Of a DNA stretch of 64,000 nt, positions 15,065-56,768 are shown piece by piece (position 1 is the stretch's first letter; every line of letters begins with the position of its first letter). The notes under the pieces were generated by a model. That model was given only the letters and a program-made list of their open reading frames with translations. It had not been told where the DNA came from and ran no database searches. The translations under genes and the position numbers were made by a program. The stretch comes from Ruminococcus sp. (lineage in GTDB: Bacteria; Bacillota; Clostridia; Oscillospirales; Ruminococcaceae). The stretch is taken from NCBI RefSeq assembly GCF_017549005.1, contig NZ_JAFYYT010000038.1, positions 124,001 through 188,000 of the forward strand, read 5' to 3'.

Positions 15065-15093
15065 TTGACACTTTTCCTGCCCCGTGATATAAT
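15065..15093 (+). promoter_or_regulatory. Consensus promoter of the cobalamin uptake operon
   Basis: TTGACA (15065-15070), 17-base spacer, TATAAT (15088-15093). Transcription would begin just before the riboswitch. Confidence 0.9.
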
Positions 15094-15106
15094 ATTCCTG
15101 TAATTG

Positions 15107-15200
15107 AATTGCAGTCTGAAACTGAGGGAAGCACGGTGAAAATCCGTCGCAGCAGTCACTGCCGTACAGTCGGATCGCTCGTCAGACAATGCAGGCAATT
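15107..15200 (+). promoter_or_regulatory. Cobalamin riboswitch
   Basis: A short (about 94 base) B12-sensing RNA. Closing stem AATTGC (15107-15112) with GCAATT (15195-15200); the conserved core GGGAAGCACGGTGAAAATCC and CGCAGC around 15127-15155 and the GTCAGAC element near 15181 fit the cobalamin riboswitch consensus. It is shorter than the common AdoCbl class and looks like the compact class II type; the exact class is not certain. Downstream genes for B12 capture and ECF transport support the call. Confidence 0.85.
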
Positions 15201-15266
15201 AACGTTTTTGGACAATGAAAAACGTATGCCGCCGACTTCACATACTCTGTGAAGCTGTTTTGCTGC

Positions 15267-15295
15267 GCTTTTCTGCACCGCGGAAAGGCTTTTTT
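15267..15295 (+). terminator. Terminator of the riboswitch expression platform
   Basis: GCTTTTC (15267-15273) pairs with GAAAGGC (15283-15289) with one T-G pair, followed by TTTTTT, before the first ATG at 15333. Other leader hairpins: ACGTTTTT/AAAAACGT (about 15202-15224) and CTTCACA/TGTGAAG (about 15237-15255). It suggests control by premature termination. Confidence 0.6.
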
Positions 15296-15332
15296 ATTGC
15301 CCGTACTACATTATTTCAAAGGAGTCGGTATT

Positions 15333-16277
15333 ATGAAAAAGACACTGGCAATGGCAGCTGCTCTGCTTATCTCATGTTCAGCTGTATGTATGAACGTATC
15401 TGCTGCGGAAACAGATCCTGCAACCGTCTATGTTACTGTTTCTGACGGCGAAAAAAAGTTTGCTCTCATTGAAGAGCCTGTAACTGTTACAGACATCGAC
15501 AGCGACGGAAAGCTCACTGTCAACGACGCTCTCTATATCGTCCACGAAAGCAAGTTCACAGGAGGTGCTTCGGCAGGCTACAAGTCATCTGTGGGACAGT
15601 ACGGACTCCAGCTCGACAAGCTCTGGGGAGTTGAAAACGGCGGAAGCTACGGTTTTTACGTAAACGATAAAATGTCTTTGGGACTTGCGGACGAAATCAA
15701 GAGCAACGACCAGATACAGGCTTTCATTTATTCGGATACAAAGAGCTACAGCGACTCATACAGCTTCTTCAATGCAAAGAAGGGCGAGGATACAGCCAGG
15801 GATTCGGAGATCTCCCTCGAGCTCTCGCATATTGTTTTTGATGAGAAATTTGCTCCCGTTGATAAGAAGCTTGCAGGTGCAAAGATAACTGTGAACGGCA
15901 AGGCAACGGACTTCGTTACCGATAGCGAGGGAAAGGTCACTGTAAAGCTCACGGAAGAGGGCAAAAATATACTTAGCGCCACATCTGACAGCGTAAACAT
16001 CGTTCCGCCTGTATATGTCGTAAATGTAAGCGGCGAAGCTGCTGCTGCCACCACGACAACAACGACAACCACAACAACAACTACTACTACGACAACGACC
16101 ACAACTACTACCACCACAACCACAACAGCAACGACTACTACCACAAAGGCGGCAACAACTACCGCAAACAAGGGCAATTCTCCGAAAACAGGAGTAAAGG
16201 GCGCAGGTATCGCAGTCGCAGGACTTGTTACCGCAGCTGCAACTGCTTTCGCATTAAGACGCAGAGATGAAGAATAA
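15333..16277 (+). CDS. Cell-wall anchored DUF4430-like putative cobalamin-capture protein
   Basis: 314-residue exported protein, first gene after the B12 riboswitch. Signal peptide to about residue 25. Residues 32-148 resemble the DUF4430 fold, the beta-domain of animal transcobalamin and intrinsic factor (LWGVENGGSYGFYVNDKMSLGLADEIKSNDQIQAFIYSD), but with a single EF-hand-like calcium loop DIDSDGKLTVND (54-66) inserted. A second beta domain spans about 158-232. Then comes a run of 26 Thr, an SPKTG sorting-type motif, a hydrophobic helix and RRRDEE, which together form an LPXTG-like cell-wall anchor signal. Start ATG 15333 has AAAGGAG upstream; the earlier ATG at 15249 lies inside the leader. 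Cobalamin binding is inferred from domain and operon. Confidence 0.78.
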   Translation: MKKTLAMAAALLISCSAVCMNVSAAETDPATVYVTVSDGEKKFALIEEPVTVTDIDSDGKLTVNDALYIVHESKFTGGASAGYKSSVGQYGLQLDKLWGVENGGSYGFYVNDKMSLGLADEIKSNDQIQAFIYSDTKSYSDSYSFFNAKKGEDTARDSEISLELSHIVFDEKFAPVDKKLAGAKITVNGKATDFVTDSEGKVTVKLTEEGKNILSATSDSVNIVPPVYVVNVSGEAAAATTTTTTTTTTTTTTTTTTTTTTTTTTATTTTTKAATTTANKGNSPKTGVKGAGIAVAGLVTAAATAFALRRRDEE

Positions 16278-18090
16278 ACTGTTATCGGGGATCCTGTGCC
16301 TGATATCAGCATTGATACTGACGCTGGAAATAGTTCCGTTCAGTGCGGAATGCAGCGATCATACCGTCGGTGAGGTCGATGACCTTATCGGCGGTATCGT
16401 CAGTTATAAGCTGGGACAGGCAGGCGCGGGAAGTGTGGAGGAATGGCTGGAAAGCGGTATCGCAGAGGGCGCAGGCAGGACAACGGACTGGTATGCCCTT
16501 ACTCTCAGCCAGTGCGGATATACTGACCTTTCAGCCTATGAACGCTCCCTTACGGAGTATCTCGGCAGCAACAATATCGCTTCTGCGACCTCACGGGAGA
16601 AGTACGCTCTTGCTCTCTGTGCGGCAGGCAGCGGAAACAGCTACATCACCGATATCCTTGACAGCTCCATAGGCGAGCAGGGCATGATGAGCTGGATATA
16701 TGGTCTCCATGTGCTCAACAACGGCTATACCTGTTCGCGCTTCACGGCGGAGTCGGTAGTCGATACCATACTTTCCATGCAGTATCCCGACGGCGGCTGG
16801 GCGCTTTTCGGGGACTACGGCGACATCGACGTCACAGCCATGACTGTGCAGGCTCTTGCCCCGTATTATCATCGGAACGGCGAGGTTTCGGACTCCGTGG
16901 ACAGGGCTATTGACTTTATGTCGCGGAAACAGATGGATACAGGCGGCTATGAGAGCTTCGGGAACCCCAATCCCGAGAGCACGGCTCAGGTGCTCACGGC
17001 AGTTTCGGCGCTGGGAATAGACTGCCGCAGCGATGAGAGATTCATCAAGAACGGCAGCGACCTCATTGACGGCATAGTGCGTTTCCGCCTGCCCGACGGC
17101 AGCTTTTCACATATCGAAGGCGGCGGCTCCAACGAGACCGCAACTGTGCAGGCGTACTATTCCTTTGTGGCGTTCAGGCGCATGACGGAGGGGAAATCGC
17201 CGCTGCTCATACTGGACAACCGCAGACATGAAACAGCTCCGCCGCAGAATGAGGAAACTCCCACACAGGGCGAAGCTGTCACTGAGGGCACTACAGCTCC
17301 GCAGTCATCGTCAGCGGTCACGGCCTCACAGGGGACTACAGTCACGGTCACGAAAACTGCGGCAGTTTCGGCTTCGGCATCTCTTAAAAAGACGGAGACC
17401 GCAGCTAAAGAAATCACCTCCGCAGTCACGGCAGTCAGGACTGAGAGCATACAGTCCGCGGCAGCTCCCCAAAGGGAAGAATCAGGCCGAAAAGGCGGCT
17501 TAAAACCAAAGCTCATCATCATTATTGCAGGCTCGGCTCTTGTCCTTTCACTTATCATGCTCATTCTCGGCAAAAGGAATATCAGGAACTTCATCTTCAT
17601 CGGCATAGCCGCAGGCGCGGCAGTGCTCATTGTGCTGGTGACGGATATAAGCTCCGCCGATGAGTACTACAGCGGCAATAAAAAGGTCAAGGACAATGCG
17701 GTCGGAACTGTCACTATGGAGATACGCTGCGACACCATAGCAGGCAGGGCGGAACATATCCCTGCGGACGGCGTGATACTGCCGCCCACGGCTTTTGACA
17801 TTGAGGCAGGGGATACCGTCTTCGATATCCTCACGGAAGCCGCTCAGACCTGCGGCATACAGGTGGAAAACAAGGGCAGCGCAGGCGGAGCTCACGGCAT
17901 GGTCTATATTTCGGGCATAAACTACATTTACGAATACGATTTCGGCGACCTTTCGGGCTGGGTTTACCATGTGAACGGCATAGCTCCCTCGCGGAGCTGC
18001 GGCGAATACGAGCTCTCCGACGGTGACAGGGTGGAATGGCTCTACACCTGCGAGATAGGTCACGACCTTAACGAGGTATACGAACAATGA
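16267..18090 (+). CDS. Transcobalamin/intrinsic factor-like membrane protein (alpha/alpha barrel plus DUF4430)
   Basis: 607 residues. Signal peptide (1-29); residues about 35-310 form terpene-cyclase/prenyltransferase-like helical repeats (PDGGWALFGDYGDIDVTAMTVQAL at 174-197, DTGGYESFG, LPDGSFSHIEGG), the same barrel type as the alpha domain of intrinsic factor. A Ser/Thr/Ala-rich linker (about 320-410) leads to two membrane helices (415-435 and 441-460) and then a DUF4430 domain (about 480-597: GWVYHVNGIAPSRSCGEYELSDGDRVEWLYT). Both cobalamin-binding-like halves would be outside, tethered by a helical hairpin. It overlaps the previous gene by 11 bases and the next by 4. Likely role: capture of cobamides at the membrane and handover to the ECF transporter. 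Ligand is inferred. Confidence 0.8.
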   Translation: MKNKLLSGILCLISALILTLEIVPFSAECSDHTVGEVDDLIGGIVSYKLGQAGAGSVEEWLESGIAEGAGRTTDWYALTLSQCGYTDLSAYERSLTEYLGSNNIASATSREKYALALCAAGSGNSYITDILDSSIGEQGMMSWIYGLHVLNNGYTCSRFTAESVVDTILSMQYPDGGWALFGDYGDIDVTAMTVQALAPYYHRNGEVSDSVDRAIDFMSRKQMDTGGYESFGNPNPESTAQVLTAVSALGIDCRSDERFIKNGSDLIDGIVRFRLPDGSFSHIEGGGSNETATVQAYYSFVAFRRMTEGKSPLLILDNRRHETAPPQNEETPTQGEAVTEGTTAPQSSSAVTASQGTTVTVTKTAAVSASASLKKTETAAKEITSAVTAVRTESIQSAAAPQREESGRKGGLKPKLIIIIAGSALVLSLIMLILGKRNIRNFIFIGIAAGAAVLIVLVTDISSADEYYSGNKKVKDNAVGTVTMEIRCDTIAGRAEHIPADGVILPPTAFDIEAGDTVFDILTEAAQTCGIQVENKGSAGGAHGMVYISGINYIYEYDFGDLSGWVYHVNGIAPSRSCGEYELSDGDRVEWLYTCEIGHDLNEVYEQ

Positions 18091-18965
18091 GAAGCTTTTC
18101 CGAATACAATCCCATAGCGGTAACAGTATGGTTCTTCAGCGTTACGGGAATAGCCATGTTCAGCAGCTATCCGCTGCTCATGGTCATGTCGCTGGTGGGG
18201 GGAGCTGTCTTCTTCACGGTACGCAACGGCTTTTCACGGGGCAGGGAGCATATCTTCTTCTGGGTGCTGTTCCTGATACTTGCCCTTGCAAATCCGCTCA
18301 TATCCCACAACGGAAAGACAGTCCTCTTTGTCATGAACCACAATCCCGTGACTCTCGAAGCCGCCCTGTACGGTCTTAACTCAGCGGCTATGATAGTGGG
18401 AGTCCTGTACTGGTTCAGGTCTTTTACGCAGATAATGACAAGCGAAAAGCTCCTCTATGTCACGGGAGCTCTCTCGCCTAAGCTGTCTCTCATACTGTCA
18501 ATGGCTCTGCGGTTCGTGCCCCTGTTCAGCAGGCAGTCCGCGAAGATAAACAGCGCACAGAAGGCAATGGGGCTCTATAAGGACGACAACATCATCGACG
18601 ACATAAAGGGAAAGTCGCGGGTTTTCTCCATACTTGTCACATGGGCTCTCGAAAACGGCATCATCACCGCCGACAGCATGGAGGCGAGGGGCTTCGGCAC
18701 TCACAGGCGCACACAGCTCCGCAGGTTCGGGTTCAGGGCGGCGGATATCGCACTCCTGGCGGCTTCCCTTGCTCTTCTCGGCGTTACGGCAGCCGCCGTG
18801 GGAAGCGGTTCCCTTGATTTTATGTTCTATCCGTCCGTAAGCACGGCAGTTCCCGACAAGCTCGGCAAAGCAGGGCTCATTGCATACGGAGCGCTTATCA
18901 TGCTCCCAATTATCATTGAAACGGAGGTGAGTCTCAGGTGGAGATACTTGCGGTCAGGGATCTGA
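18087..18965 (+). CDS. ecfT: ECF transporter transmembrane (T) component
   Basis: 292-residue membrane protein with about six to eight hydrophobic segments and the two coupling-helix motifs of EcfT proteins, SAQKAMG (about 152) and SMEARGFG (about 198), which contact the ATPases. It starts with an ATGA overlap to the transcobalamin-like gene and is followed by the ATPase gene overlapping by 28 bases. In ECF importers this protein joins the ATPase dimer to the substrate-binding S subunit. Its place between a B12 riboswitch operon head and a private S component suggests a dedicated, not shared, ECF module. Confidence 0.9.
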   Translation: MRSFSEYNPIAVTVWFFSVTGIAMFSSYPLLMVMSLVGGAVFFTVRNGFSRGREHIFFWVLFLILALANPLISHNGKTVLFVMNHNPVTLEAALYGLNSAAMIVGVLYWFRSFTQIMTSEKLLYVTGALSPKLSLILSMALRFVPLFSRQSAKINSAQKAMGLYKDDNIIDDIKGKSRVFSILVTWALENGIITADSMEARGFGTHRRTQLRRFGFRAADIALLAASLALLGVTAAAVGSGSLDFMFYPSVSTAVPDKLGKAGLIAYGALIMLPIIIETEVSLRWRYLRSGI

Positions 18966-20569
18966 CATTTACATATCCTGAATGCGGCTCGCCTGCAGTG
19001 AAAAACGTGTCGTTCAGCCTTGAACGGGGCGAATTTGCCGTACTGTGCGGAGCTACGGGCAGCGGCAAGTCCACGCTCCTGCGTATGCTCAAACGTGAGC
19101 TCACCCCTGTGGGTGATATGAGGGGCAGCGTTTCTTTCTGCGGAACTCCCCTTGCAGAGCTCGACAACATCACATCGGCTTCTGCAACAGGCTTCGTTAT
19201 GCAGAACCCCGAGCAGCAGACCGTCACCGACAAGGTGTGGCACGAGCTTGCGTTCGGACTTGAAAATCTCGGTACTCCTCCCGATGAGATATCGCGGCGC
19301 ATTGCCGAAATGGCAAGCTACTTCGGCATAGGGGAATGGTACGACAAGAACGTTTCTGAGCTTTCGGGCGGTCAGAAGCAGCTCCTCAACCTTGCCGCGG
19401 TACTGGTCATGCAGCCGCAGCTGCTAATACTCGACGAACCCACCGCCCAGCTTGACCCCATAGCGGCGGCGGACTTCACGGCAACGCTGAAAAGGCTTTG
19501 TCAGGACTTTTCCGTTACCATAATAATGGCGGAGCACCGCCTGGAGGACGTTGTTCCTGTATGCGACAGGCTCCTCGTAATGGAAAAGGGCTCGCTCATC
19601 GCTTCTGCGCCGCCTGCCGAGGTCATTTCGGGACTTAAAGGGCGGAGCGATATACTCTGCGGTATGCCTGCGGCGGCAAGGGTTTACGCAGGGCTTGGCG
19701 GCATGGGGAGATGTCCCCTTACTGTCCGCGAGGGCAGGGCGTTCATAGAGAGCGGCTACGGGAACTCCGCACGGGCGCTGCCGCTGAGGGAGCACGGTCA
19801 CAGCGATGAAACGGCTCTCGAGTACAAAAACGTGTATTTCCGCTACGAGAGAAACGGCAGGGACATACTTGACGGTCTCAGCCTGAAAGTGTACAGCGGC
19901 GAGCTTTTCTGCATACTCGGGGGGAACGGTTCGGGCAAGACCACGGCTCTTTCCGCGGCGGCAGGGCTTCTCAGAGCCTACAGCGGCAGTATAAGGGTAT
20001 TCGGGAAACGGCTGAAAGACTACAGGAACCGCTCCCTTTACCGTGATTGCCTTGCAATGCTGCCCCAGGACGTTCAGACGGTCTTTCTGAAAAATACAGT
20101 CCGCGCCGAGCTTGACGAGTGCGGAGCCCGTACAGATGAGCTCCCTTACGATATATCGCATCTCATGGACAAGCACCCCTACGACCTTTCGGGAGGCGAG
20201 CAGCAGCTTGTCGCCCTTGCAAAGGTGCTTGCCGCAAAGCCGAAGCTTCTGCTCCTTGACGAGCCCACAAAGGGACTTGACGCGGCTGCGAAGCTGAATA
20301 TGATAAAGGTACTGCGGAGCCTGAGAGAAAAGGGGATAACTGTTGTGACCGTCACCCACGACGTTGAGTTCGCAGCAGCATTTTCCGACAGGTGCGCCAT
20401 GTTTTTCGGGGGCAGGATAGTTTCCGTCGGCGAGCCCCGTGAGTTCTTCACGAAAAACAGCTTCTACACCACGGCAGTAAGCCGCATGACAAGGGGCTAT
20501 TACGACAATGCCGTTACCGTTGAGGACGCTGTGGAGCTTTGCAGCTCGAACGGCAGAAAGGAGTGCTGA
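18938..20569 (+). CDS. Fused ECF transporter ATPase (EcfA-EcfA')
   Basis: 543 residues with two complete ABC ATPase domains. First: Walker A GATGSGKST (about 38-46), signature LSGGQKQ (about 141), Walker B LLILDEPTAQLDP. Second: Walker A GGNGSGKTT (about 327), signature LSGGEQQ (about 416), Walker B LLLLDEPTKGLD. It powers the ECF importer in the cytoplasm. Start is GTG at 18938 with GGAGGTGA 7 bases upstream. Fusion of both ATPase subunits is one of the known arrangements in dedicated ECF systems. Confidence 0.92.
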   Translation: MEILAVRDLTFTYPECGSPAVKNVSFSLERGEFAVLCGATGSGKSTLLRMLKRELTPVGDMRGSVSFCGTPLAELDNITSASATGFVMQNPEQQTVTDKVWHELAFGLENLGTPPDEISRRIAEMASYFGIGEWYDKNVSELSGGQKQLLNLAAVLVMQPQLLILDEPTAQLDPIAAADFTATLKRLCQDFSVTIIMAEHRLEDVVPVCDRLLVMEKGSLIASAPPAEVISGLKGRSDILCGMPAAARVYAGLGGMGRCPLTVREGRAFIESGYGNSARALPLREHGHSDETALEYKNVYFRYERNGRDILDGLSLKVYSGELFCILGGNGSGKTTALSAAAGLLRAYSGSIRVFGKRLKDYRNRSLYRDCLAMLPQDVQTVFLKNTVRAELDECGARTDELPYDISHLMDKHPYDLSGGEQQLVALAKVLAAKPKLLLLDEPTKGLDAAAKLNMIKVLRSLREKGITVVTVTHDVEFAAAFSDRCAMFFGGRIVSVGEPREFFTKNSFYTTAVSRMTRGYYDNAVTVEDAVELCSSNGRKEC

Positions 20570-20570
20570 A

Positions 20571-21257
20571 ATGCTCCTTATCAGAAACAAAGAGCTGCGG
20601 AATGCCATAAAAATAGCCGTTCCCTTTGTGATAATACCCTCAGTTACGATACTGGGAGCTCTCGCATTTGACGAAAAGAAGCACATAATCGTTTCCCTTG
20701 CAGTTGCGGTGTTCTCCCTTCTTCTCTTCGCGGCAGGCTTCGAGAAGAAGTCCACGGGAACGCGGCGAATGGTCATAGTTGCGGTAATGACGGCTCTCTG
20801 CTTTGCAGGCAGGTTCATACCGTTTCTCAAGCCCATAGCGGCTCTGACGATAATCACCGCCCTGTATCTCGGGGGCGAGGCAGGCTTCCTTGTGGGAGCT
20901 CTTTCCGCTGTGCTGTCCAATTTCTACTTCGGACAGGGACCGTGGACGGCTTTCCAGATGCTTGCATGGGGACTTATCGGACTTTTCGCAGGGATATTCT
21001 CGGAAAAACTCCTGAAAAGCCGCGTACTCCTCCTGCTTTACGGAGCTGCAACGGGTATCGCCTACTCGTTCATCATGGATATATGGACGGTGCTGTGGTA
21101 TAATCAGGGCTTCAGCCTGAAACTCTACCTTGCGGCGCTGGCTTCGGCTGTGCCGTATACTGCGTCATATGCAGTGTCCAACGTGCTGTTCCTGTATCTG
21201 CTGGCAAAGCCCTTCGGCGAAAAGCTGGAGCGTATAAAGACCAAGTACGGAGTGTGA
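20571..21257 (+). CDS. ECF transporter substrate-specific (S) component, probably for cobalamin
   Basis: 228-residue membrane protein with about six helices and an ECF S-component pattern (RMVIVAVMTALCFAGRFIP, then GGEAGFLVGALSAVLSNFYFGQGPWTAFQMLAWGLIGLFAG). ATG at 20571 has AAAGGAG upstream, two bases after the ATPase stop; an upstream in-frame ATG at 20508 lies inside the ATPase gene and is rejected. Cobalamin as substrate is inferred from the riboswitch and the transcobalamin-like genes; the fold alone does not give the ligand. An N-terminal helix pair (about residues 15-55) precedes the core. Confidence 0.85.
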   Translation: MLLIRNKELRNAIKIAVPFVIIPSVTILGALAFDEKKHIIVSLAVAVFSLLLFAAGFEKKSTGTRRMVIVAVMTALCFAGRFIPFLKPIAALTIITALYLGGEAGFLVGALSAVLSNFYFGQGPWTAFQMLAWGLIGLFAGIFSEKLLKSRVLLLLYGAATGIAYSFIMDIWTVLWYNQGFSLKLYLAALASAVPYTASYAVSNVLFLYLLAKPFGEKLERIKTKYGV

Positions 21258-46732: not shown

Positions 46733-47587
46733 ATGAATCTAACCAACATCGGAACAGTGAAGGATATACTGTCCCGTCACGGCTTCAGCTTTTCAAAGGG
46801 GCTGGGACAGAATTTCATAATCAATCCCGATATCTGTCCGAAAATAGCAGAATACGGCAACGCCTGCAAGGGCTTCGGAGTTCTTGAGATAGGAACCGGT
46901 ATCGGAGTCCTTACGGCGGAGCTTGCAAAAAGAGCAGACAAGGTGGCTGCCGTGGAGATAGACGAGAGGCTGCTGCCTATACTTGCGGAGACACTTGCGG
47001 ACTTTGACAATGTAAAGATCATCAACGAGGACGTAATGAAATGCGATCTGCACAGGCTTATAGACGAGGAGTTCAAGGGGCTTCACGTTGCGGTGTGCGC
47101 AAATCTGCCGTATTACATTACGTCCCCCATCATTATGATGCTCCTTGAGAGCCGTCTGCCCATAGAGTCCATTACCGTAATGGTACAGAAGGAGGCTGCA
47201 CAGCGCCTGTGCGCGAAGGTGGGCTCGCGCGAGTCGGGAGCTATCACCGTGGGAGTGAATTACTACGGCACGGTGAAGAAGCTTTTTGATGTTTCACGGG
47301 GCAGCTTCATGCCTGCGCCCAATGTGGACTCGGCTGTCATGAGGATAGATATAAACAAGGAGCAGCGCCTTGACGAGGAGAGCGAGAAGTTCTTCTTCAA
47401 AGTGGTCAAGGCAGGCTTTTCACAGAGAAGAAAGACCCTCGCAAATTCTCTTTCGTCAGTTATGGGAATACCTAAGGAAAGGGTATATTCCGCACTGAAA
47501 TCACAGGGACTTCCCGAGGCTGCACGTATAGAGCAGCTCGATATGGAAAAGCTCATTGCAGTTTCTGCAGAGCTTATGGAGCAGTAA
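46733..47587 (+). CDS. rsmA: 16S rRNA dimethyladenosine transferase
   Basis: Dimethylates two adjacent adenosines near the 3' end of 16S rRNA (KsgA). 284 residues with KGLGQNFIINPDI, the SAM site LEIGTGIGVLTAELAKRADKVAAVEID, and motif IV NLPYYITSPI; the C-terminal SFMPAPNVDSAVMRI and FSQRRKTLANSL are family typical. Its last base overlaps the first of cbiL, which ties a ribosome gene to the cobamide operon. Confidence 0.95.
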   Translation: MNLTNIGTVKDILSRHGFSFSKGLGQNFIINPDICPKIAEYGNACKGFGVLEIGTGIGVLTAELAKRADKVAAVEIDERLLPILAETLADFDNVKIINEDVMKCDLHRLIDEEFKGLHVAVCANLPYYITSPIIMMLLESRLPIESITVMVQKEAAQRLCAKVGSRESGAITVGVNYYGTVKKLFDVSRGSFMPAPNVDSAVMRIDINKEQRLDEESEKFFFKVVKAGFSQRRKTLANSLSSVMGIPKERVYSALKSQGLPEAARIEQLDMEKLIAVSAELMEQ

Positions 47588-48282
47588 TGGGAAAGCTCTA
47601 TGGCGTAAGCGTTGGAGCAGGCGATCCGCAGCTCATGACGCTGAAAGCGGTGGGTATACTGGAAAGGTGCAGAGTCATAGCCGTACCGCGCACGAACGGG
47701 GAGAGCTCGCTTGCTCTTTCGATAGCGGAGAAAGCCGTGGACTTGTCCCGCAAGCGTGTGATATACCTCGATTTCCTCATGACCAGCGACAGGGAAAGAC
47801 TTGACAGGAATCACGGGGAGCTTTCAGCCATGCTTTGCAGGGAGCTTGAAGACGGAGATGTGGCATTCCTTACTCTCGGCGATATATCGGTGTATTCCAC
47901 ATTCGGATACATCGCCTGCCGCGTCGAACAGGCAGGCTTTGATGTGGAGGTATGCGCCGGAGTGACCAGCTTCTGTGCGGCTGCTGCCGCTGTAAGGGAG
48001 CCGCTCTGCCTCGGCAGCGAGGAGCTGCATATCATACCTTGCAGCTGCGGCGATATGGAAAAAGCTCTCGGGCTCAGCGGAACAAAGGTCATAATGAAAG
48101 CAGGCAGAAAAGCGGCAGAGCTCATTGAACTCATAAGGGAAAAGGGGCTTTCCGACTGTACAAAGGTCGTGTCCGACTGCGGACTTGACACCGAAAGGAT
48201 ATACGGTTCTGTGGAGGATATTGACGGAGAGCCCGGATATTTCACACTTTTCATAGTCAACGGCAGGGAGAAGTTCAGATGA
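47587..48282 (+). CDS. cbiL: Cobalt-factor II / precorrin-2 C20-methyltransferase
   Basis: Second SAM-dependent ring methylation of anaerobic corrin synthesis. 231 residues of the tetrapyrrole methylase fold: LYGVSVGAGDPQLMTLKAVGIL at the start, LTLGDISVYSTFGYI and VCAGVTSFCAAAAAV in the middle. Start ATG coincides with the rsmA stop. First of 17 cobamide genes in order. Confidence 0.93.
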   Translation: MGKLYGVSVGAGDPQLMTLKAVGILERCRVIAVPRTNGESSLALSIAEKAVDLSRKRVIYLDFLMTSDRERLDRNHGELSAMLCRELEDGDVAFLTLGDISVYSTFGYIACRVEQAGFDVEVCAGVTSFCAAAAAVREPLCLGSEELHIIPCSCGDMEKALGLSGTKVIMKAGRKAAELIELIREKGLSDCTKVVSDCGLDTERIYGSVEDIDGEPGYFTLFIVNGREKFR

Positions 48283-49421
48283 AGCTTGAGGAATACATTT
48301 GCAGGGGAAAGGAGAAGCTCCGCTGCGGTTATACAACAGGTTCATGCGCGGCAGCTGCCGCAAAGGCTGCTGCGGAAATGCTCATGACGGGCAGAAAAGC
48401 TGAGTATGTGGAGCTTATGACTCCCAGGGGGATAAAGCTTTGCCTTGACGTTACCGGGCAGAAGCTCGGCGGCGGAGCAGCCTCATGTGCCATAGTCAAG
48501 GACAGCGGCGACGACCCCGATATAACCAACGGGATAAAGGTCTTTGCAGAAGTCTCGGCAGCGGAAAGCGGTGTTGAGATAATCGGCGGCGAGGGTATCG
48601 GCAGAGTCACGAAAGCAGGGCTTGACCAGCCTGTGGGCGAAGCTGCCATAAATTCCGTGCCGCGGAGGATGATATGCGAAGCTGTCATGGAAATTGCCGA
48701 AAAATACGGTTACTCAGGCGGTTTCCGCGTGAAAATATCAGTTCCTGACGGAATTGGGATAGCAAAGAAGACATACAATCCGCGAATGGGCATCGAGGGC
48801 GGTATTTCCATAATCGGCACAAGCGGTATCGTGGAACCCATGAGCAATGCTGCACTTGTGGAGACTATCCGCACCGAGGCGAAAATGCGCCGTGCCGAGG
48901 GGCAGAGGAATATGCTCCTCACACTTGGAAATTACAGTGAGAGCTTCGTGCAGAACGAGCTGTCCTTTTCGCTGGAAAGAAGCGTTACGTGCAGCAACTT
49001 CATCGGCGAGGCTATAGATATCGGGCTGGAGCTTGGCTTTGAGAGCATACTCATTGTCGGTCATATAGGCAAGCTGGTAAAGCTTGGTGCAGGTATTATG
49101 AATACCCACTCCTCATGGGCTGACGGGCGTATGGACGTGCTGGTCACCTGCGGAGTCCTTGCAGGAGCCGACATGGATACCCTCAGAAAGCTTCCCGATT
49201 GTGCAACGGCTGACGCGGCAATGGATATCCTCGATGAAAAGGGGTACCTTGAAAAAACTGCGGAAGTCCTTGAAAAGCGTATGGAAAGCTACCTCAATGC
49301 AAGAGTAAAGGGAGAAGCAAGGATAGCTGCCATAGCTTTTTCATTCAAGCGCGAGCTTTTAATAAAAACGTCCCTTGCGGACCAACTTATACAGGCGATT
49401 ACAGGTGAAGAAAATGGTTGA
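48279..49421 (+). CDS. cbiD: Cobalt-precorrin-5B C1-methyltransferase
   Basis: Methylates C1 of the ring; CbiD marks the anaerobic (early cobalt insertion) route. 380 residues starting with LRCGYTTGSCAAAAAKAAAEML, then KIRVPDGI-like VKISVPDGIGIAKKTYNPRMGIEGGISIIGTSGIVEPMS, and IVGHIGKLVKLGAGIMNTHS, all family signatures. Overlaps cbiL by 4 bases and cbiF by 8. Confidence 0.95.
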   Translation: MKLEEYICRGKEKLRCGYTTGSCAAAAAKAAAEMLMTGRKAEYVELMTPRGIKLCLDVTGQKLGGGAASCAIVKDSGDDPDITNGIKVFAEVSAAESGVEIIGGEGIGRVTKAGLDQPVGEAAINSVPRRMICEAVMEIAEKYGYSGGFRVKISVPDGIGIAKKTYNPRMGIEGGISIIGTSGIVEPMSNAALVETIRTEAKMRRAEGQRNMLLTLGNYSESFVQNELSFSLERSVTCSNFIGEAIDIGLELGFESILIVGHIGKLVKLGAGIMNTHSSWADGRMDVLVTCGVLAGADMDTLRKLPDCATADAAMDILDEKGYLEKTAEVLEKRMESYLNARVKGEARIAAIAFSFKRELLIKTSLADQLIQAITGEENG

Positions 49422-50172
49422 TTTTGTTGGTGCGGGCTGCGGAGCTCCCGACCTTATAACCCTGAGAGGAAAGCGGCTCATCGAAAATGCAGACGTCATA
49501 ATATATGCAGGCTCTCTCGTAAATCCCGTGCTCCTTGCGTATGCAAAGGAGGGATGCGAGATACATAACAGCGCACTCATGCACCTTGACGAGGTAATAG
49601 ATGTAATGAAAAATGCCGAGGCTGACGGGAAAAATACTGTCCGTCTCCATACAGGCGACCCTTCGGTCTACGGAGCTGTCCGCGAGCAGATGGACAGGCT
49701 TGACGAGCTGGATATACCGTACAGGGTCACTCCCGGAGTCAGCTCCTTCTGCGGAGCTGCGGCTGCGCTGAGAGCGGAATACACTCTTCCCGACGTATCG
49801 CAGACCGTTATCCTCACAAGAATGGCAGGGCGGACTCCCGTCCCCGAAAAGGAGAGTATTGAGAGCCTTGCAGCACATAATGCCACTATGGTCATATTCC
49901 TCAGTGCAGGCATGACGGAGGAGCTCTCACAGCGTCTTATCAAAGGCGGATACAGCGGCGATACTCCTGCGGCTATCGTGTACAAGGCTACGTGGGAGGA
50001 CGAAAAGGTGGTGCGCTGTACAGTTGCGGAGCTTCACGAAGCTGCGGAAAGAAACGGCATAACAAAGACCGCTCTTATAACTGTGGGCGGCTTCCTCGGA
50101 AACGATTACGAATTGTCAAAGCTCTACGACAAAACATTTGAAACTGAGTTCAGAAAGGCAGAGAAAATATGA
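49414..50172 (+). CDS. cbiF: Cobalt-precorrin-4 C11-methyltransferase
   Basis: 252-residue tetrapyrrole methylase: VDFVGAGCGAPDLITLRGKRLIENADVIIYAGSLVNP is diagnostic of CbiF/CobM, followed by HTGDPSVYGAVREQM and VTPGVSSFCGAAAAL. The start is ATG 49414, with AGGTGAAG before it inside the end of cbiD; the earlier ATG 49375 is deep within cbiD. Confidence 0.95.
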   Translation: MVDFVGAGCGAPDLITLRGKRLIENADVIIYAGSLVNPVLLAYAKEGCEIHNSALMHLDEVIDVMKNAEADGKNTVRLHTGDPSVYGAVREQMDRLDELDIPYRVTPGVSSFCGAAAALRAEYTLPDVSQTVILTRMAGRTPVPEKESIESLAAHNATMVIFLSAGMTEELSQRLIKGGYSGDTPAAIVYKATWEDEKVVRCTVAELHEAAERNGITKTALITVGGFLGNDYELSKLYDKTFETEFRKAEKI

Positions 50173-51209
50173 ATATAGCTGTTTTTTCGGTCACCGAAAA
50201 CGGCAGGAAGCTCTCCCTGAGAGTAGGGGGACTGCTTGAAGCCGAGCACAAGGTGAGCCGTTATTGTTTTCATAAGCACACCGATGATAATTCGGCTGTA
50301 TTCTGGAATATGGGGAGCATGGTCGGACGCCTTTTCGAGCGCTCCGACGCCTTTGTTTTCGTCTGCGCCTGCGGCATAGCAGTCCGCGCAGTTGCGCCCT
50401 ATCTCGGTACGAAAGCCGACGACCCTGCCGTAATTGTCATGGACGACTGCGGAAAGTTCGTTATCCCTGTGCTTTCGGGACATATAGGCGGTGCGAACCG
50501 CCTTGCGGAGGTCATTGCAGAAAGGCTCGGTTCACAGGCAGTCATAACTACCGCAACTGACGTCGGAGGCCGCTTTTCTCCTGACAGCTTTGCTGCGGCA
50601 AACGGCCTGATAATTACAGACCTGAAAGCGGCAAAGGAGATAGCCGCGGAAGTCCTCGACGATGAAAAGATAGGCTTCTGCAGCGATTACAGGCACGGCG
50701 GACTGCCCTCAGAGCTTACGGAGTTCGGCGTGTGCAGGACAGGTATATGCGTCAGCAGAGATACAGGAAAGAAGCCTTTCCCCGTCACTCTCAATCTCGT
50801 CCCGAGAAATATAGTCCTCGGTATCGGCTGCAAGAAAGGGACTTCCGCCGAAGCAGTGAGAAAAGCTGTCAGCGAAGCTCTTGAGCAGCATAATATCGAC
50901 ATCGGCACGGTGTCGGAGGCGGCTACTATCGATATCAAAAAGGACGAAGCGGGACTGTGTGAGTTCTGCGGAAGTATGGGGATAAAGCTGAATACCTATA
51001 CTGCTGAGGAGCTTATGGCTGTAAGCGGCGATTTTGAAAGCTCCGGCTTTGTTCTCGAAACAACGGGAGCGGATAATGTCTGCGAAAGAAGCGCTGTACT
51101 TTGCAGCGGCGGTAAGCTGATAATGAAAAAGACCGCGTCTGACGGCGTGACGGTGGCAGCTGCCGAAAAGCCCGTATATCTTGATTTTGAAAAGGAAATA
51201 ACACTATGA
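50169..51209 (+). CDS. cbiG: Cobalt-precorrin-5A hydrolase
   Basis: Opens the delta-lactone of cobalt-precorrin-5A with release of acetaldehyde, again an anaerobic-route step. 346 residues: FVFVCACGIAVRAVAPYLGTKADDPAVIVMDDCGKFVIPVLSGHIGGANRLA in the N-terminal domain and a C-terminal CobE/CbiG domain (NIVLGIGCKKGTSAEAVRKAV). ATGA overlaps on both sides. Confidence 0.94.
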   Translation: MNIAVFSVTENGRKLSLRVGGLLEAEHKVSRYCFHKHTDDNSAVFWNMGSMVGRLFERSDAFVFVCACGIAVRAVAPYLGTKADDPAVIVMDDCGKFVIPVLSGHIGGANRLAEVIAERLGSQAVITTATDVGGRFSPDSFAAANGLIITDLKAAKEIAAEVLDDEKIGFCSDYRHGGLPSELTEFGVCRTGICVSRDTGKKPFPVTLNLVPRNIVLGIGCKKGTSAEAVRKAVSEALEQHNIDIGTVSEAATIDIKKDEAGLCEFCGSMGIKLNTYTAEELMAVSGDFESSGFVLETTGADNVCERSAVLCSGGKLIMKKTASDGVTVAAAEKPVYLDFEKEITL

Positions 51210-51934
51210 AGCTTTATGTTGCAGGCATTGGCTGCGGCAGCAGGGACGGTATCACCCTTGAAGCCGAAAGGGCTGTGCTCGACAGTGATATAGTTGTGGG
51301 GTATACAGTTTATACAGAACAGATAAAGCGCTTTTATCCCGAAAAGGAGTGCATCTCCACAGGCATGAAGCAAGAGCGCGAGCGTGTGGAGCTTGCTCTT
51401 GAAAACGCCGCAGGCGGAAAAAAAGTGGCTCTTGTGTGCAGCGGCGACAGTCAGCTTTACGGCATGGCAGGGCTTGCTATCGAGCTTTCCGTGAACTATC
51501 CCGGGGTCGATATCGAAGTTATAGCAGGAGTTTCGGCTGCATTCAGCGGCGGAGCAGTTCTCGGCGCTCCCATGACTCATGATCTTGCGCTTATAAGCCT
51601 TTCCGACCTTCTCACGCCTATGGAGAAGATAATAAAGCGTCTCCGCTGTGCGGCGGAGGGCGACTTCGTGATCGCTCTGTACAATCCGTCCTCGAAGAAA
51701 CGCGCTGACTACCTGCAAAAAGCCTGCGACATTGTCCTCGGATACCGCTCTCCCGAAACTGTCTGCGGTATCGTCAGCAATATCGGCAGGGAGGGGCAGT
51801 CAAGCAGGATACTTACCCTCGGTGAGCTGAGAGATACGCAGGTGGATATGTTCACGACGGTATTCATCGGGAACTCGGAGACTAAGGTCGTAAACGGGAA
51901 AATGGTCACTCCGAGGGGCTACCGCAATGTGTAG
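51206..51934 (+). CDS. cbiH: Cobalt-factor III / precorrin-3B C17-methyltransferase
   Basis: Ring-contracting methylase, 242 residues: KLYVAGIGCGSRDGITLEAERAVLDSDIVVGYTVYTEQI, VCSGDSQLYGMAGLAIEL, and VIAGVSAAFSGGAVLGAPMTHDLALISLSDLLTP. The short form without the extra Fe-S C-terminal domain that some CbiH60-type proteins carry. Overlaps cbiJ by 8 bases. Confidence 0.94.
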   Translation: MKLYVAGIGCGSRDGITLEAERAVLDSDIVVGYTVYTEQIKRFYPEKECISTGMKQERERVELALENAAGGKKVALVCSGDSQLYGMAGLAIELSVNYPGVDIEVIAGVSAAFSGGAVLGAPMTHDLALISLSDLLTPMEKIIKRLRCAAEGDFVIALYNPSSKKRADYLQKACDIVLGYRSPETVCGIVSNIGREGQSSRILTLGELRDTQVDMFTTVFIGNSETKVVNGKMVTPRGYRNV

Positions 51935-52673
51935 GGTACTTATCTTCGGCGGAACTACAGAGGGCAGGGAAATAGCCGAATACTGCGGTGAAAAAGGTAT
52001 CAGTGCCGCTGTTTCAGTAGCTACGGAGTACGGTGCGGAGCTGCTGCCGGAAAGCAGCTGCATAAAAAAGCTTGTGGGCAGGCTTGACGACAACGGTATC
52101 AGGGAACTAATTCTTCGCCTGAAATGCAGGGCTGTCATAGACGCGACCCACCCCTATGCGGAAGAGGTAACGAAGAATATCAGGACTGCCTGCGGTATGC
52201 TCGGAATGACCTGTTACAGGCTCATACGCACACCTGAGAAGCTTTCGGGCTGCATTGCAGCCGCAAGTATGAACGAGCTTGTGGAAATACTGAACAGCTC
52301 CGACAAAACTGTTCTCAGCACTCTCGGCAGCAAGGAACTGCCGCGTCTTGCGGAAGTCCGAGGCTTTGACAAAAGGATATGGATAAGAGCCCTGCCAATG
52401 GAAGAAGTGCGGAAAAACTGTGTAGAACTGGGATTCAGTGAGGACAGGCTCATACTTGAAAAGGGACCTTTTTCTGTTGAACAGAATATTGCACACATCA
52501 GAAAAAGCGGCGCGGAGCTTCTTGTGACAAAAGAGAGCGGAGCTGTCGGTGGATTCCCCGAAAAGCTTGAGGCGGCGAAGATATGCGGCATTGAAGTCGC
52601 CGTACTTGCAAGACCTGCGGAAAAGGGCTTTACAGCCGATAAAATAAAGGAAATACTCGATGAAATGAGGTGA
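51927..52673 (+). CDS. cbiJ: Cobalt-precorrin-6A reductase
   Basis: NAD(P)H-dependent reduction of the macrocycle. 248 residues: VLIFGGTTEGREIAEYCGEKG at the start, VIDATHPYAEEVTKNI, STLGSKELPRL and TKESGAVGGFPEKLEAA near the end, the standard CbiJ/CobK words. Four bases separate it from the next gene, the only non-overlapping junction in the series. Confidence 0.94.
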   Translation: MCRVLIFGGTTEGREIAEYCGEKGISAAVSVATEYGAELLPESSCIKKLVGRLDDNGIRELILRLKCRAVIDATHPYAEEVTKNIRTACGMLGMTCYRLIRTPEKLSGCIAAASMNELVEILNSSDKTVLSTLGSKELPRLAEVRGFDKRIWIRALPMEEVRKNCVELGFSEDRLILEKGPFSVEQNIAHIRKSGAELLVTKESGAVGGFPEKLEAAKICGIEVAVLARPAEKGFTADKIKEILDEMR

Positions 52674-52677
52674 AGAG

Positions 52678-53868
52678 TTGAAGATATACATAGTGGGAAC
52701 GGGCATGGAAGGCGCTGAAACGCTGACAAGAGAAGCGGCAGAAGCCATTGAGGAGGCGGAAGTCCTCATAGGTGCAGAGCGGATGCTGGAGCCCTTTAAA
52801 TCGTTGGGCAAGCCTGTGCTCGCGGAGTACCGCAGCGATGAGATAGTGCGCTATATCGAGGAAAACAGCTTTGCCTCTGCAGCTGTTCTCATGTCGGGAG
52901 ACTGCGGATTTTTCAGCGGCGCAAAGAAACTGAACGAGAAGCTTGCAAAGTATGCTCCCAAGGTGATATGCGGTATTTCTTCACCTGTTTACCTTTGTGC
53001 AAAGCTCGGAAAGGAATGGTCGGACTGTTTTTTTGTGAGTCTTCACGGTAAAAAAGCAAGTATCGTGAGAAACGTGAGAGCTCACAAAAAGACATTTTTT
53101 CTCCTCGGCGGAGATGTTACGGCAGCAGATGTCTGCCGTCGTCTGTGCGAGTACGGAATAGGTGACGTTTCCATATATATAGGCAAAAACCTCGGCTACG
53201 ACGATGAGCTGATACTGAGCGGCAAGGCTTCGGAGCTTGCAGAGACTGATACGGACGGGCTTTGCGTCATGCTATGTGAAAATCCCGGTTATGAGAGGTT
53301 CGTTCCCTGCGGTATTGCCGATGAGGAGTTCATCAGGGGCAAGGTTCCGATGACCAGGTGTGAAGTAAGGGCGGCAGTCGTCGGGGGACTTGATATAGGC
53401 GCTGACAGCGTCTGCTGGGATATCGGCAGCGGCACGGGCTCGGTGGCAGTGGAAATGGCTATGCGCTGCGGAAACGGCGTGGTCTGTGCTGTTGAAAAGA
53501 ACCCTGAAGCTGTTTCGCTTATAGGGCAGAACAAGGTGAAGTTCGGCTGCGATAATATAGAAATTTACAGCGGTGAGGCGGCAGAGATCATTGAGAAGCT
53601 CCCTGTTCCCGATTCGGTATTTATCGGCGGTTCGGGTGGTCAGTTGTGTGGTATTATCGAAACAGCCGCAGCTATGAACCGCAATTTACGGCTGACCGTT
53701 ACTGCGGTATCACTGGAAACACTTTCTCAGTGTACAGCAATTTTTGACAAGCTCGGACTTGAAGCGGAGATCACTCAGATAGCCGTTACCCGTACCCGAA
53801 AAGTCGGCAGTCATACTATGCTCAGCGCTGAAAATCCCATATGGATAATAAAGAGGAAACGCCCATGA
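52678..53868 (+). CDS. cbiET: Fused cobalt-precorrin-7 C5/C15-methyltransferase and decarboxylase (CbiE-CbiT)
   Basis: 396 residues. The N-terminal half is a CbiE tetrapyrrole methylase (IYIVGTGMEGAETLTREAAEAIEEAEVLIGAERML, VLMSGDCGFFSGAKKL), the C-terminal half a CbiT class I methylase (about 215-390, DSVCWDIGSGTGSVAVEMAMR and DSVFIGGSGGQL), equal to CobL. Start is TTG at 52678 after GAGGTGAAGAG. The fusion occurs in many anaerobic operons. Confidence 0.93.
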   Translation: MKIYIVGTGMEGAETLTREAAEAIEEAEVLIGAERMLEPFKSLGKPVLAEYRSDEIVRYIEENSFASAAVLMSGDCGFFSGAKKLNEKLAKYAPKVICGISSPVYLCAKLGKEWSDCFFVSLHGKKASIVRNVRAHKKTFFLLGGDVTAADVCRRLCEYGIGDVSIYIGKNLGYDDELILSGKASELAETDTDGLCVMLCENPGYERFVPCGIADEEFIRGKVPMTRCEVRAAVVGGLDIGADSVCWDIGSGTGSVAVEMAMRCGNGVVCAVEKNPEAVSLIGQNKVKFGCDNIEIYSGEAAEIIEKLPVPDSVFIGGSGGQLCGIIETAAAMNRNLRLTVTAVSLETLSQCTAIFDKLGLEAEITQIAVTRTRKVGSHTMLSAENPIWIIKRKRP

Positions 53869-55211
53869 AAAGAATGTTGATAGGCGGTACTCACAGCGGC
53901 TGCGGCAAAACTACCATAGTCTGTGCAATTCTTGCGGCGCTGAAAGCCCGCGGATTGTCAGTGAGCAGCTTCAAATGCGGCCCCGATTACATCGACCCTA
54001 TGTTCCACAAGAGCATTATCGGCGCGGAGTCCTACAATCTTGACAGCTTTTTCTGCGATGACAATACGCTGAGAAATTTACTTTGCATGAACAGTAAAAA
54101 CAGCGATATATCGGTGATAGAAGGAGTTATGGGCTACTATGACGGAGTCGGCGGACGGGGTTCTGCTCATTCCGTCTCTATGGCGACGGAGACTCCGTCG
54201 GTGGTCGTCATCGACTGCAAGGGTGCGTCTGAGTCCATAGGCGCAGTTATGAGGGGGTTCATTGACTATGAAGTCCCGAACAGGATAAAAGGCTTCATTT
54301 TCAACAGGCTCCCCGAGCGCCTTGTGCCTCTTGCAAGGGGAATTTGTGAAAAGCTCGGTACCCGTTATTTCGGCTGTTTTCCCGTGAACAGCTTTTCGCT
54401 GGAAAGCCGCCGTCTGGGACTTGTAACAGCTGACGAGGTCGCTGATCTGAAAGAAAAAACACTGGAGCTCGGAGCACTTGCTGAGAAGCATATACTTCTC
54501 GATGAGCTGCTTGCTGCTGCGGAGGCTCCGCTTCCCGAATATTCTCCGCTAAAAGTGAAAAGACTTTTTAGGAATGGCAAGCCAAAAATTGCTGTTGCAA
54601 AGGATAAGGCGTTCTGCTTCATTTATGACGAAAATCTTCAGCTTCTGGAACAGCTTGGCTGCGAAATACAGTTCTTTTCGCCCATAAGTGATGAAAAGCT
54701 CCCCGAAAACTGCTGCGGACTGTTTCTCAGCGGCGGTTATCCCGAGCTTCATGCCGATGAGCTCTCAGCGAACCGCGGAATGCTTGCGGCAGTAAAGAGC
54801 GCGGTAGCTTCGGGAATGCCAACTATCGCCGAATGCGGCGGATTTATGTATCTGCACGAAGCAATGAAAACGACAGACGGACTGGAACACAAAATGGCGG
54901 GAGTTCTGAACGGGACTGCCTATGAGACAGCGCGTTTGCAGCGTTTCGGCTACGTTACTCTCACTGCCTGCGAAGACAGTCTTATATGCCGCAAAGGTCA
55001 GAAAATAGCGGCTCATGAGTTCCATTACTGGGACAGCACAGACTGCGGCAGCAGCTTCACGGCACGGAAGGCTGACGGCAGGGAGTGGAGCTGCATACAC
55101 GGCGGGAAATCGCTTTACGCAGGCTTTCCGCACCTGTACTTTTATACAGATATCAGTATTGCCGAGCGGTTTGCAGCTGCTTGTGCGGAGTTTGGAGGCA
55201 TTTATGGATAG
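53865..55211 (+). CDS. cbiA: Cobyrinate a,c-diamide synthase
   Basis: ATP- and glutamine-dependent amidation of the a and c side chains. 448 residues from ATG 53865 (ATGA overlap): P-loop GGTHSGCGKTTI (about 5-16), FKCGPDYIDPMFH, then the class I glutaminase domain with GLFLSGGYPELHADEL and the Cys nucleophile in TIAECGGFMYL. The upstream ATG at 53841 is inside cbiET and is rejected. Confidence 0.95.
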   Translation: MKRMLIGGTHSGCGKTTIVCAILAALKARGLSVSSFKCGPDYIDPMFHKSIIGAESYNLDSFFCDDNTLRNLLCMNSKNSDISVIEGVMGYYDGVGGRGSAHSVSMATETPSVVVIDCKGASESIGAVMRGFIDYEVPNRIKGFIFNRLPERLVPLARGICEKLGTRYFGCFPVNSFSLESRRLGLVTADEVADLKEKTLELGALAEKHILLDELLAAAEAPLPEYSPLKVKRLFRNGKPKIAVAKDKAFCFIYDENLQLLEQLGCEIQFFSPISDEKLPENCCGLFLSGGYPELHADELSANRGMLAAVKSAVASGMPTIAECGGFMYLHEAMKTTDGLEHKMAGVLNGTAYETARLQRFGYVTLTACEDSLICRKGQKIAAHEFHYWDSTDCGSSFTARKADGREWSCIHGGKSLYAGFPHLYFYTDISIAERFAAACAEFGGIYG

Positions 55212-56253
55212 GATAGCTCATATAAAGCCTGTTGACAGGAAATACGCCGACCTTGCACAGGCTCGCTGGGACTCGGTGGCAAAGCCCCTCCGCAGCTTCG
55301 GTGTGCTCGAGGAGATGTGGAACAGGATAGCGGCTGTTCAGCGCACCGATATGCCCAATATCTTCAACCGCGCTGTAGTCGTCATGTGCGCTGATAACGG
55401 CGTTGTTGCCGAGGGCGTTACACAGTCCGATAATTCGGTGACTGCTGCCTGCGCTAAGGAGATAGCCTGCGGACGGTCGAATATAAATGTTCTCGCAGAC
55501 GTTTACCGTGCCGAGGTCGTTGCCGTGGATATCGGAATTGCCCGTGATATAGCCTGCAGGGGACTTATCAACAGGAAGATATGCAAGGGTACGGCGAATA
55601 TAGCTGTCGGTCCCGCAATGTCCGCCGCTAAGGCTGAACAGGCTATACAAACGGGTATGGACATTGCAGGTGAGCTTGCAAACAAGGGCATAAAGCTCAT
55701 TGTTACGGGTGAAATGGGTATCGGGAATACGACTCCCACAGCTGCCCTTTCATCGGTGCTTCTCGGACTGCCGCCCGATGCGGTAACAGGCAGAGGCGCA
55801 GGTCTGTCATCTGACGGACTTGAGCGTAAAATTGCAGTCGTAAAGCGTGCTATAAAGATAAATTCTCCGTTTTCCGACAACGGGGTGGAGCTCCTTGCAA
55901 AGCTTGGAAGCTTCGAGATAGGCGGCATGACCGGTCTTTTTCTCGGGGGTGCCCATTACGGTGTAACTGTCGTCATTGACGGCGTTATTTCGGCAGTTGC
56001 GGCTGTTCTCGCGTCAATGATCGCTCCTGCGTCTGTGGATTATATGCTTGCAGGTCATGTTTCTGCGGAGCCTGCAGGAAGAGGACTTCTTGAAAAGCTT
56101 GGTCTCCGCGCGGTGATAGACGGTGAGCTGAGACTCGGGGAGGGCACGGGCGGTATACTTCTTCTTCCTCTTCTTGACGGAGCTGCGGCGATATACTACA
56201 ACTCACACAGATTTGACGGTCTGGGCATAGAAAGGTATGTGGAACTGAAATGA
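55204..56253 (+). CDS. cobT: Nicotinate-nucleotide--dimethylbenzimidazole phosphoribosyltransferase
   Basis: Activates the lower-ligand base to its alpha-riboside phosphate. 349 residues from ATG 55204, overlapping cbiA by 8 bases: ARWDSVAKPLRSFGVLE, VVVMCADNGVVAEGVTQSDNSVT, GEMGIGNTTPTAAL, and the catalytic Glu in RLGEGTGGILLLPLLD. No gene for base synthesis (bza or bluB type) is in the window, so which base it activates is open. Confidence 0.94.
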   Translation: MDRIAHIKPVDRKYADLAQARWDSVAKPLRSFGVLEEMWNRIAAVQRTDMPNIFNRAVVVMCADNGVVAEGVTQSDNSVTAACAKEIACGRSNINVLADVYRAEVVAVDIGIARDIACRGLINRKICKGTANIAVGPAMSAAKAEQAIQTGMDIAGELANKGIKLIVTGEMGIGNTTPTAALSSVLLGLPPDAVTGRGAGLSSDGLERKIAVVKRAIKINSPFSDNGVELLAKLGSFEIGGMTGLFLGGAHYGVTVVIDGVISAVAAVLASMIAPASVDYMLAGHVSAEPAGRGLLEKLGLRAVIDGELRLGEGTGGILLLPLLDGAAAIYYNSHRFDGLGIERYVELK

Positions 56254-56768
56254 CAACACTTGTTACAGGCGGTTCAAAGTGCGGTAAATCAAGCTATGCG
56301 GAAAAGGTACTGGAGAACTTTGCAGGGCAGAAATACTATATCGCCACTATGGAGCCCGTCGGGGACGACGCATACGAGATAATCGCCCGTCACCGTGAAG
56401 CGCGGAAGAACAGGAACTTCATAACTGTAGAGTGTCCCCGTGATGTCGGCAAGCTCCATCTGCCTGCCGATTGCGGTATTCTCCTGGAATGTATAGGGAA
56501 TCTCTGTGCAAACGAGATGTACACAGGCGGAGCGGTACTCAGGCCGTCAGGTAAGATAATCAGCGATATAAGGCGACTCGGGGAGACTGCTTCACAGCTC
56601 GTTATCGTTACAAACGAGGTCGGAAGCGACGGTAACAGTTATTCCGCGGACATTATGGCTTTCGTAAGCGAGATAGCGCGGATAAACAGTGGTATAGCTG
56701 AGTTTGCGGACAATGTGGTCGAGTGCGTTTACGGTATCCCCACGGCTCTGAAAGGGGAGCTCGTATGA
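56250..56768 (+). CDS. cobU: Adenosylcobinamide kinase / guanylyltransferase
   Basis: 172 residues: P-loop GGSKCGKSSYAEKVL (7-21), IATMEPVGDDAYEIIARHREARKNR with the guanylylated His, LLECIGNLCANEMY, and VTNEVGSDG. It phosphorylates adenosylcobinamide and transfers GMP. Overlaps cobT and cobS by 4 bases each. A shorter relative lies two genes on. Confidence 0.94.
   Translation: MTTLVTGGSKCGKSSYAEKVLENFAGQKYYIATMEPVGDDAYEIIARHREARKNRNFITVECPRDVGKLHLPADCGILLECIGNLCANEMYTGGAVLRPSGKIISDIRRLGETASQLVIVTNEVGSDGNSYSADIMAFVSEIARINSGIAEFADNVVECVYGIPTALKGELV

Follow-up and report, generated by a model that had tools for sequence, protein, structure and literature searches.

Introduction

Transcobalamin, intrinsic factor and haptocorrin, the cobalamin (vitamin B12) proteins of animals, are soluble carriers in which an alpha/alpha barrel is joined to a beta domain. 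Here we describe an operon at 15065..21257 of a 64,000-nucleotide stretch (the window; contig NZ_JAFYYT010000038.1, positions 124,001 to 188,000) from a Ruminococcus sp. whose genome is close to Ruminococcus flavefaciens. It encodes two surface proteins, P1 and P2, and an importer of the energy-coupling factor (ECF) type, and it is probably a riboswitch-controlled operon for cobamide salvage, in which P1 and P2 capture corrinoids for ECF import. Its likeness to the animal carriers lies in an alpha/alpha barrel and a DUF4430-type beta domain, both extracytoplasmic; the vertebrate transcobalamin-type proteins have a C-terminal DUF4430 domain, according to passages of one study (PMC4350170). In contrast to the animal proteins, those described here are cell-anchored, P2 has a linker and a membrane hairpin between its domains, and corrinoid binding is predicted.

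The importer resembles ECF-CbrT of Lactobacillus delbrueckii (6fnp) in its CbrT-family S component, EcfT and ATPases, and import of cobalamin and cobinamide is expected from this likeness. As described in passages of PMC5997447, CbrT binds and transports both compounds, and the L. delbrueckii ECF module is common to eight predicted S components, whereas here EcfT, the fused ATPases and the S component are encoded in one operon, which is also riboswitch-led and adds two large surface proteins. Surface capture of B12 is known from Bacteroides, where BtuG and BtuH are surface lipoproteins (passages of PMC6143338 and PMC6977713; see also PMC8941943). Our locus is similar in coupling riboswitch-regulated surface capture, here predicted, to a transporter; however, BtuG is a beta-propeller that partners BtuB, while the proteins described here place a toroid and DUF4430 on a Gram-positive surface next to an ECF importer. 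The BtuFCD-type ATP-binding cassette importers of Gram-positive bacteria share corrinoid import but belong to another transporter class; a passage of PMC6977713 notes that some Gram-positives carry btuFCD but lack btuB, and it also mentions the L. delbrueckii ECF system. Identifying the B12 transport systems of many gut genomes is an open problem, as part of PMC6593275 states. In the accessible portions of the open-licence literature we found no paper that links DUF4430 proteins to ECF importers, although these neighbours may have been mentioned earlier, and no description of extracytoplasmic corrinoid capture by Gram-positive gut or rumen bacteria.

Results

The operon carries a CbrT-like importer behind a B12 riboswitch

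The locus consists of a promoter, an adenosylcobalamin (AdoCbl)-II riboswitch, a terminator-like hairpin and five tightly packed genes encoding P1, P2, EcfT, EcfAA and the S component (Table 1). Library scans and the list of open reading frames confirmed the promoter, riboswitch and gene order that an initial annotation had read from the sequence. When the S component was compared with solved chains by phmmer, there was one significant match (E 1.3e-9): 6fnp_A, the S component CbrT for B12. A nine-row S-component profile matched the same chain at 3.5e-17, and the next S chain, 4hzu_S, followed at 0.0025; matches in NCBIfam were only weak. The initial annotation had asked whether the S component might be nearest to one for another vitamin, and among the solved chains CbrT was nearest. 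With this S component, EcfT and two ATPase domains, the operon contains what a CbrT-type importer comprises, and from this kinship corrinoid import is very likely. The RF01689 aptamer, the CbrT match and the riboswitches that recur upstream in related genomes together support cobamide uptake under a B12 riboswitch. Furthermore, a PF02361 search of the genome gave two EcfT genes, and because the sole other one lies on a separate contig (C53), the ECF module appears to be dedicated to this operon, in agreement with the private importer initially proposed.

The leader is conserved among relatives. The aptamer was found in 13 of the 14 leaders of the leader alignment (the window included); among the 13 loci of the R. 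flavefaciens group, it passes the Rfam cut-off in 9 and is recognisable by alignment in 12, and locus L018 has no aptamer within 290 bases. A sigma-70-type promoter was also judged present by eye in 10 of 13 relatives' leaders. The hairpin that follows the aptamer is probably part of the expression platform, and the terminator-like hairpin is a probable attenuator. Elsewhere in the window, no B12 riboswitch scored above the Rfam cut-off.

Table 1. Features of the uptake operon and its leader, in window coordinates.
Feature	Position	Strand	Evidence and details
Sigma-70-type promoter	15065..15093	+	TTGACA-17-TATAAT, 12/12 consensus matches
AdoCbl-II (B12) riboswitch aptamer	15113..15188	+	RF01689, 39.5 bits, E 6.6e-6, above Rfam cut-off
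Conserved hairpin 3' of aptamer	15202..15225	+	8-bp stem; z -2.9 for fold of 15192-15232; kept in leader alignment
Terminator-like hairpin and T6 before first gene	15267..15295	+	10-pair stem, then T6; fold of 15246-15303 z -1.1
P1, exported wall-anchored protein	15333..16277	+	NF033846; hhalign to DUF4430; alignment of relatives
P2	16267..18090	+	toroid amino acids ~31-313, linker ~315-411, helices 412-433 and 439-458, DUF4430 515-594
EcfT, transmembrane energy-coupling protein	18087..18965	+	PF02361, 39 bits
EcfAA, two ECF ATPase domains on one chain	18938..20569	+	TIGR04520 (331.9 bits) and ABC_tran, each in two stretches
CbrT-like S component, substrate-binding membrane protein	20571..21257	+	PF07155 44.6 bits; 6fnp_A match

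P2 has a toroid and a DUF4430 domain parted by a membrane hairpin

The structure model gives the toroid of P2 an alpha/alpha barrel fold, and its DUF4430 domain matches Pfam at E 9.9e-14; the linker between them is of low complexity. The initial annotation had described a transcobalamin-like barrel-DUF4430 protein. Both kinds of domain are indeed present, but the linker and two hydrophobic membrane helices separate them, so P2 is not a plain transcobalamin and does not match the soluble-carrier arrangement of a barrel joined to its beta domain. P1 consists of a divergent DUF4430-like domain (amino acids 28-150), a second domain (150-233), a Thr-rich stalk and an NPXTG-type anchor; its likeness to DUF4430 was seen only by profile comparison (hhalign). 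Judged by these domains, P1 and P2 are likely to capture corrinoids by binding them.

The DUF4430-like domain of P1 also contains an EF-hand/dockerin-like loop, DxDxDGKLTxND (amino acids 54-65, window 15492-15527), which is kept in all 14 alignment rows and is a possible calcium site. The loop is not a general trait of DUF4430, as all 125 DUF4430 domains compared, including 13 from P2 proteins, lack it. On the opposite strand, a long valine-rich open frame (15746-16312) faces the Thr codon tract of P1 and is an artefact that probably holds no gene.

The gene order recurs in related bacteria

We surveyed 299 genomes spread evenly over the phylum (Bacillota, as inferred from named relatives) and 14 control genomes. 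PF14478 (DUF4430) was found in 91 of the 299 and in two controls, Lactococcus lactis and Methanosarcina acetivorans. Eighty of the 91 were searched further; 11 were excluded for completeness <93, contamination ≥6 or a match at a contig end. Riboswitch numbers from this search are lower bounds, taken from the best 150 matches and completed for 40 genomes. RF00174 was present in at least 72 of the 80 genomes and a CbrT-like S component in 77. Four genomes (G014, G133, G270 and G294) had no DUF4430 place among the matches listed, which left 76 to be counted. In 63 of these, a CbrT-like S gene lies within 10 kb downstream of a listed DUF4430 place on the same strand; at least 55 have a B12 riboswitch in the 6 kb upstream (with the RF01689 aptamer of the window counted), and at least 52 have both. 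Likewise, at least 88 of 128 listed DUF4430 places have an upstream B12 riboswitch, compared to roughly 0.5 expected for 2.5-Mb genomes and listed riboswitches only.

The initial annotation had suggested looking for the same gene order elsewhere, and the order recurs. DUF4430, EcfT, EcfAA and S follow one another in 43 of 60 inspected regions, a figure that describes these regions and is no frequency, because they were picked for having DUF4430. The toroid lies upstream of EcfT in 39 of the 43, and all 43 encode an ATPase chain of >500 amino acids; a further 7 of the 60 have DUF4430 and S without an ECF module. In most of the related operons a surface barrel-DUF4430 protein comes first and a small DUF4430 protein second (32 of the 43 regions, by eye). 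When ten first-gene proteins were scanned, SLH domains were seen in seven, a Gram-positive anchor in two and neither in one, and DUF4430 was detected at E ≤1 in nine, eight of which pass the Pfam cut-off. Among the relatives, wall- or S-layer-anchored proteins carry the barrel and then DUF4430 on one chain. The same gene order occurs in Latilactobacillus curvatus p1_CACC879 (CP117684.1, a 592-kb record), with toroid and DUF4430 on two genes.

Two variants of the importer genes were also observed. In one region (L062), a single ECF module has two S components and two toroid proteins around it, an arrangement that possibly splits substrate specificity. In three others (L071, L081 and L088), a single open frame covers EcfAA and S, an apparent ATPase-S fusion.

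Domain rearrangement in Ruminococcus and small DUF4430-S pairs

Thirteen loci of the R. flavefaciens group encode P2 with 50-79% identity, and the five genes stand in identical order at all of them; the P2 alignment omits the L018 protein, whose gene has an in-frame stop. A tree built from 118 columns of 125 DUF4430 domains leaves many forks open; in it, all 13 P2 domains group together (100/100), nested inside a supported set of these 13 and 12 small DUF4430 domains (98/85). Because the P2 domains group with small DUF4430 domains, the simplest reading of the tree is that P2 arose by joining of a toroid gene to a tethered DUF4430 gene. Thus in Ruminococcus the barrel shares a chain with the tethered DUF4430, and P1, on the wall, keeps just a DUF4430-like domain; the history behind this rearrangement is one that we infer.

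Small DUF4430 proteins also accompany S components directly. In one genome (G268), RF00174 is followed by genes for a 153-amino-acid DUF4430 protein, a CbrT-like S component and a cobalamin adenosyltransferase (PF01923, E 1.6e-61). This order resembles that of nrdJ-cbrS-cbrT-pduO, a cluster of L. delbrueckii given in a passage of PMC5997447, and our guess is that the cbrS product is a DUF4430 protein. At seven loci (L087 and L090-L095), a small DUF4430 protein and S are encoded on one strand with no ECF module. In the S-component tree, operon members cluster together, separate from the members that come from pairs (98/96); B12 specificity is therefore best supported for the operon type.

Cobamide synthesis and other uptake in the host

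About 26 kb from the uptake operon, the window holds an operon (47587-60476, + strand) with most of anaerobic cobamide biosynthesis: cbiL, cbiD, cbiF, cbiG, cbiH, cbiJ, cbiET, cbiA, cobT, cobU-, cobS- and cobC-like genes, cbiB and cobD, of which CbiG, CobU, CobS, CobC and CobD fall below NCBIfam cut-offs. cbiC and cbiP were not among the 20 open reading frames scanned and were not sought elsewhere. The one RF00174 of the genome (G000, contig C52, 89484-89684, - strand; region L110, 1178-7685) leads genes for CbiK-like, NEAT-like (below cut-off), Peripla_BP_2 periplasmic-binding, FecCD, ATPase and EamA proteins, which by their families look like a second, Btu-like importer for corrinoids (or heme) with a chelatase-like protein. 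Given this operon, the synthesis operon and a MetH-like B12-binding protein, we conclude that the cell is a user and probable producer of cobamides, with two uptake systems led by riboswitches; B12 auxotrophy was dropped as an explanation once the synthesis genes had been found. The initial annotation had cast the operon as a scavenger filling the role of BtuB. Uptake of cobamides under a B12 riboswitch stands, but the operon is not the only corrinoid source of the cell, because of the probable synthesis and the second importer.

Discussion

We propose that, at low intracellular adenosylcobalamin, the riboswitch would let RNA polymerase pass the terminator. Wall-held P1 and the extracytoplasmic toroid and DUF4430 of membrane-tethered P2 would then bind scarce corrinoids and so raise their concentration beside the membrane, and the corrinoid would be handed to the CbrT-like S component for import driven by the dedicated EcfT-EcfAA.

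Several observations weigh against this proposal. The DUF4430 part of the P2 model is of low confidence. PF01122, the Pfam family for the cobalamin-binding domain of the animal proteins, had no match at E ≤1 among those listed for P2 and ten relatives. In 13 of the 76 genomes there is no S near DUF4430, with the two on different contigs in 12 of the 13, and in 10 of the 60 inspected regions, some of them cut by contig ends, DUF4430 and S do not occur together on one strand. No Rfam riboswitch was found at the L. curvatus operon. Decarboxylase genes lie beside two of the small pairs (L091 and L092), L091 also having a biotinyl domain protein nearby, and RF00174 is absent from the riboswitches listed for their genomes; such pairs perhaps serve another substrate. 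In addition, CbrT itself is not among the members of the S-component tree.

One narrower form of cobamide salvage is that the system chiefly takes up corrinoids that are incomplete (cobinamide, for example) or cobamides that are foreign, and complements the cell's own synthesis rather than supplying B12. The synthesis genes in the same window and the uptake of cobinamide by CbrT (in the passages of PMC5997447) both fit it; we hold it tentatively, as a doubtful refinement whose probability overlaps that of salvage in general.

Alternatively, corrinoids might be imported while the surface proteins do not bind them, the toroid acting instead as an enzyme, or binding sugars or peptides, to release corrinoids from carriers or to position the transporter. 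When the full-length P2 model was compared by VIA-align, the toroid fold was nearest, among the best 50 structural matches, to cyclases and N-acylglucosamine/cellobiose 2-epimerases; transcobalamin, intrinsic factor and other animal B12 carriers were not among these 50, which excludes nothing. In sequence, the toroid is nearest to SQHop (terpene) cyclases. DxDD, the catalytic acid motif of class II terpene cyclases, is nevertheless absent from P2 (which reads GDIDVTAM) and present in just 9 of 78 toroid domains, and we rank a terpene cyclase low because P2 lacks it. DUF4430 is also found without ECF genes, as are toroid/DUF4430 proteins, which in Vescimonas lie among dockerin, MoxR and transglutaminase genes outside such operons. 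Yet the proteins look exported, and toroid and DUF4430 repeatedly share one chain, the pairing named for the animal B12 carriers, so that we regard a non-binding role as unlikely. Another substrate, riboflavin or heme, with the riboswitch as a mere cross-signal, is highly improbable: the S component belongs to the riboflavin-named PF07155 and S. lugdunensis has an ECF importer for heme (in part of PMC7299338), but B12 riboswitches recur upstream of DUF4430 places, CbrT is the one significant solved match with the next S chain far weaker, and one relative (G268) has an adenosyltransferase beside S.

Beyond this genome, we lean towards corrinoid capture of this kind being a widespread, undescribed Gram-positive route to B12, in which corrinoids caught by an anchored barrel-DUF4430 protein, acting like a cell-bound intrinsic factor, would go first to a tethered DUF4430 protein and then to a private CbrT-type ECF importer. 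Shared ancestry with the animal carriers is possible, and the kinship of the P2 toroid to their barrel is a candidate, unproven relation. Under this proposal DUF4430, a domain whose function is unknown, gains a specific role to examine, corrinoid capture, and the origin of intrinsic factor and transcobalamin becomes open to tests in bacteria. If true, it would change the picture of gut competition for B12, because DUF4430 occurs in 91 of the 299 phylum genomes.

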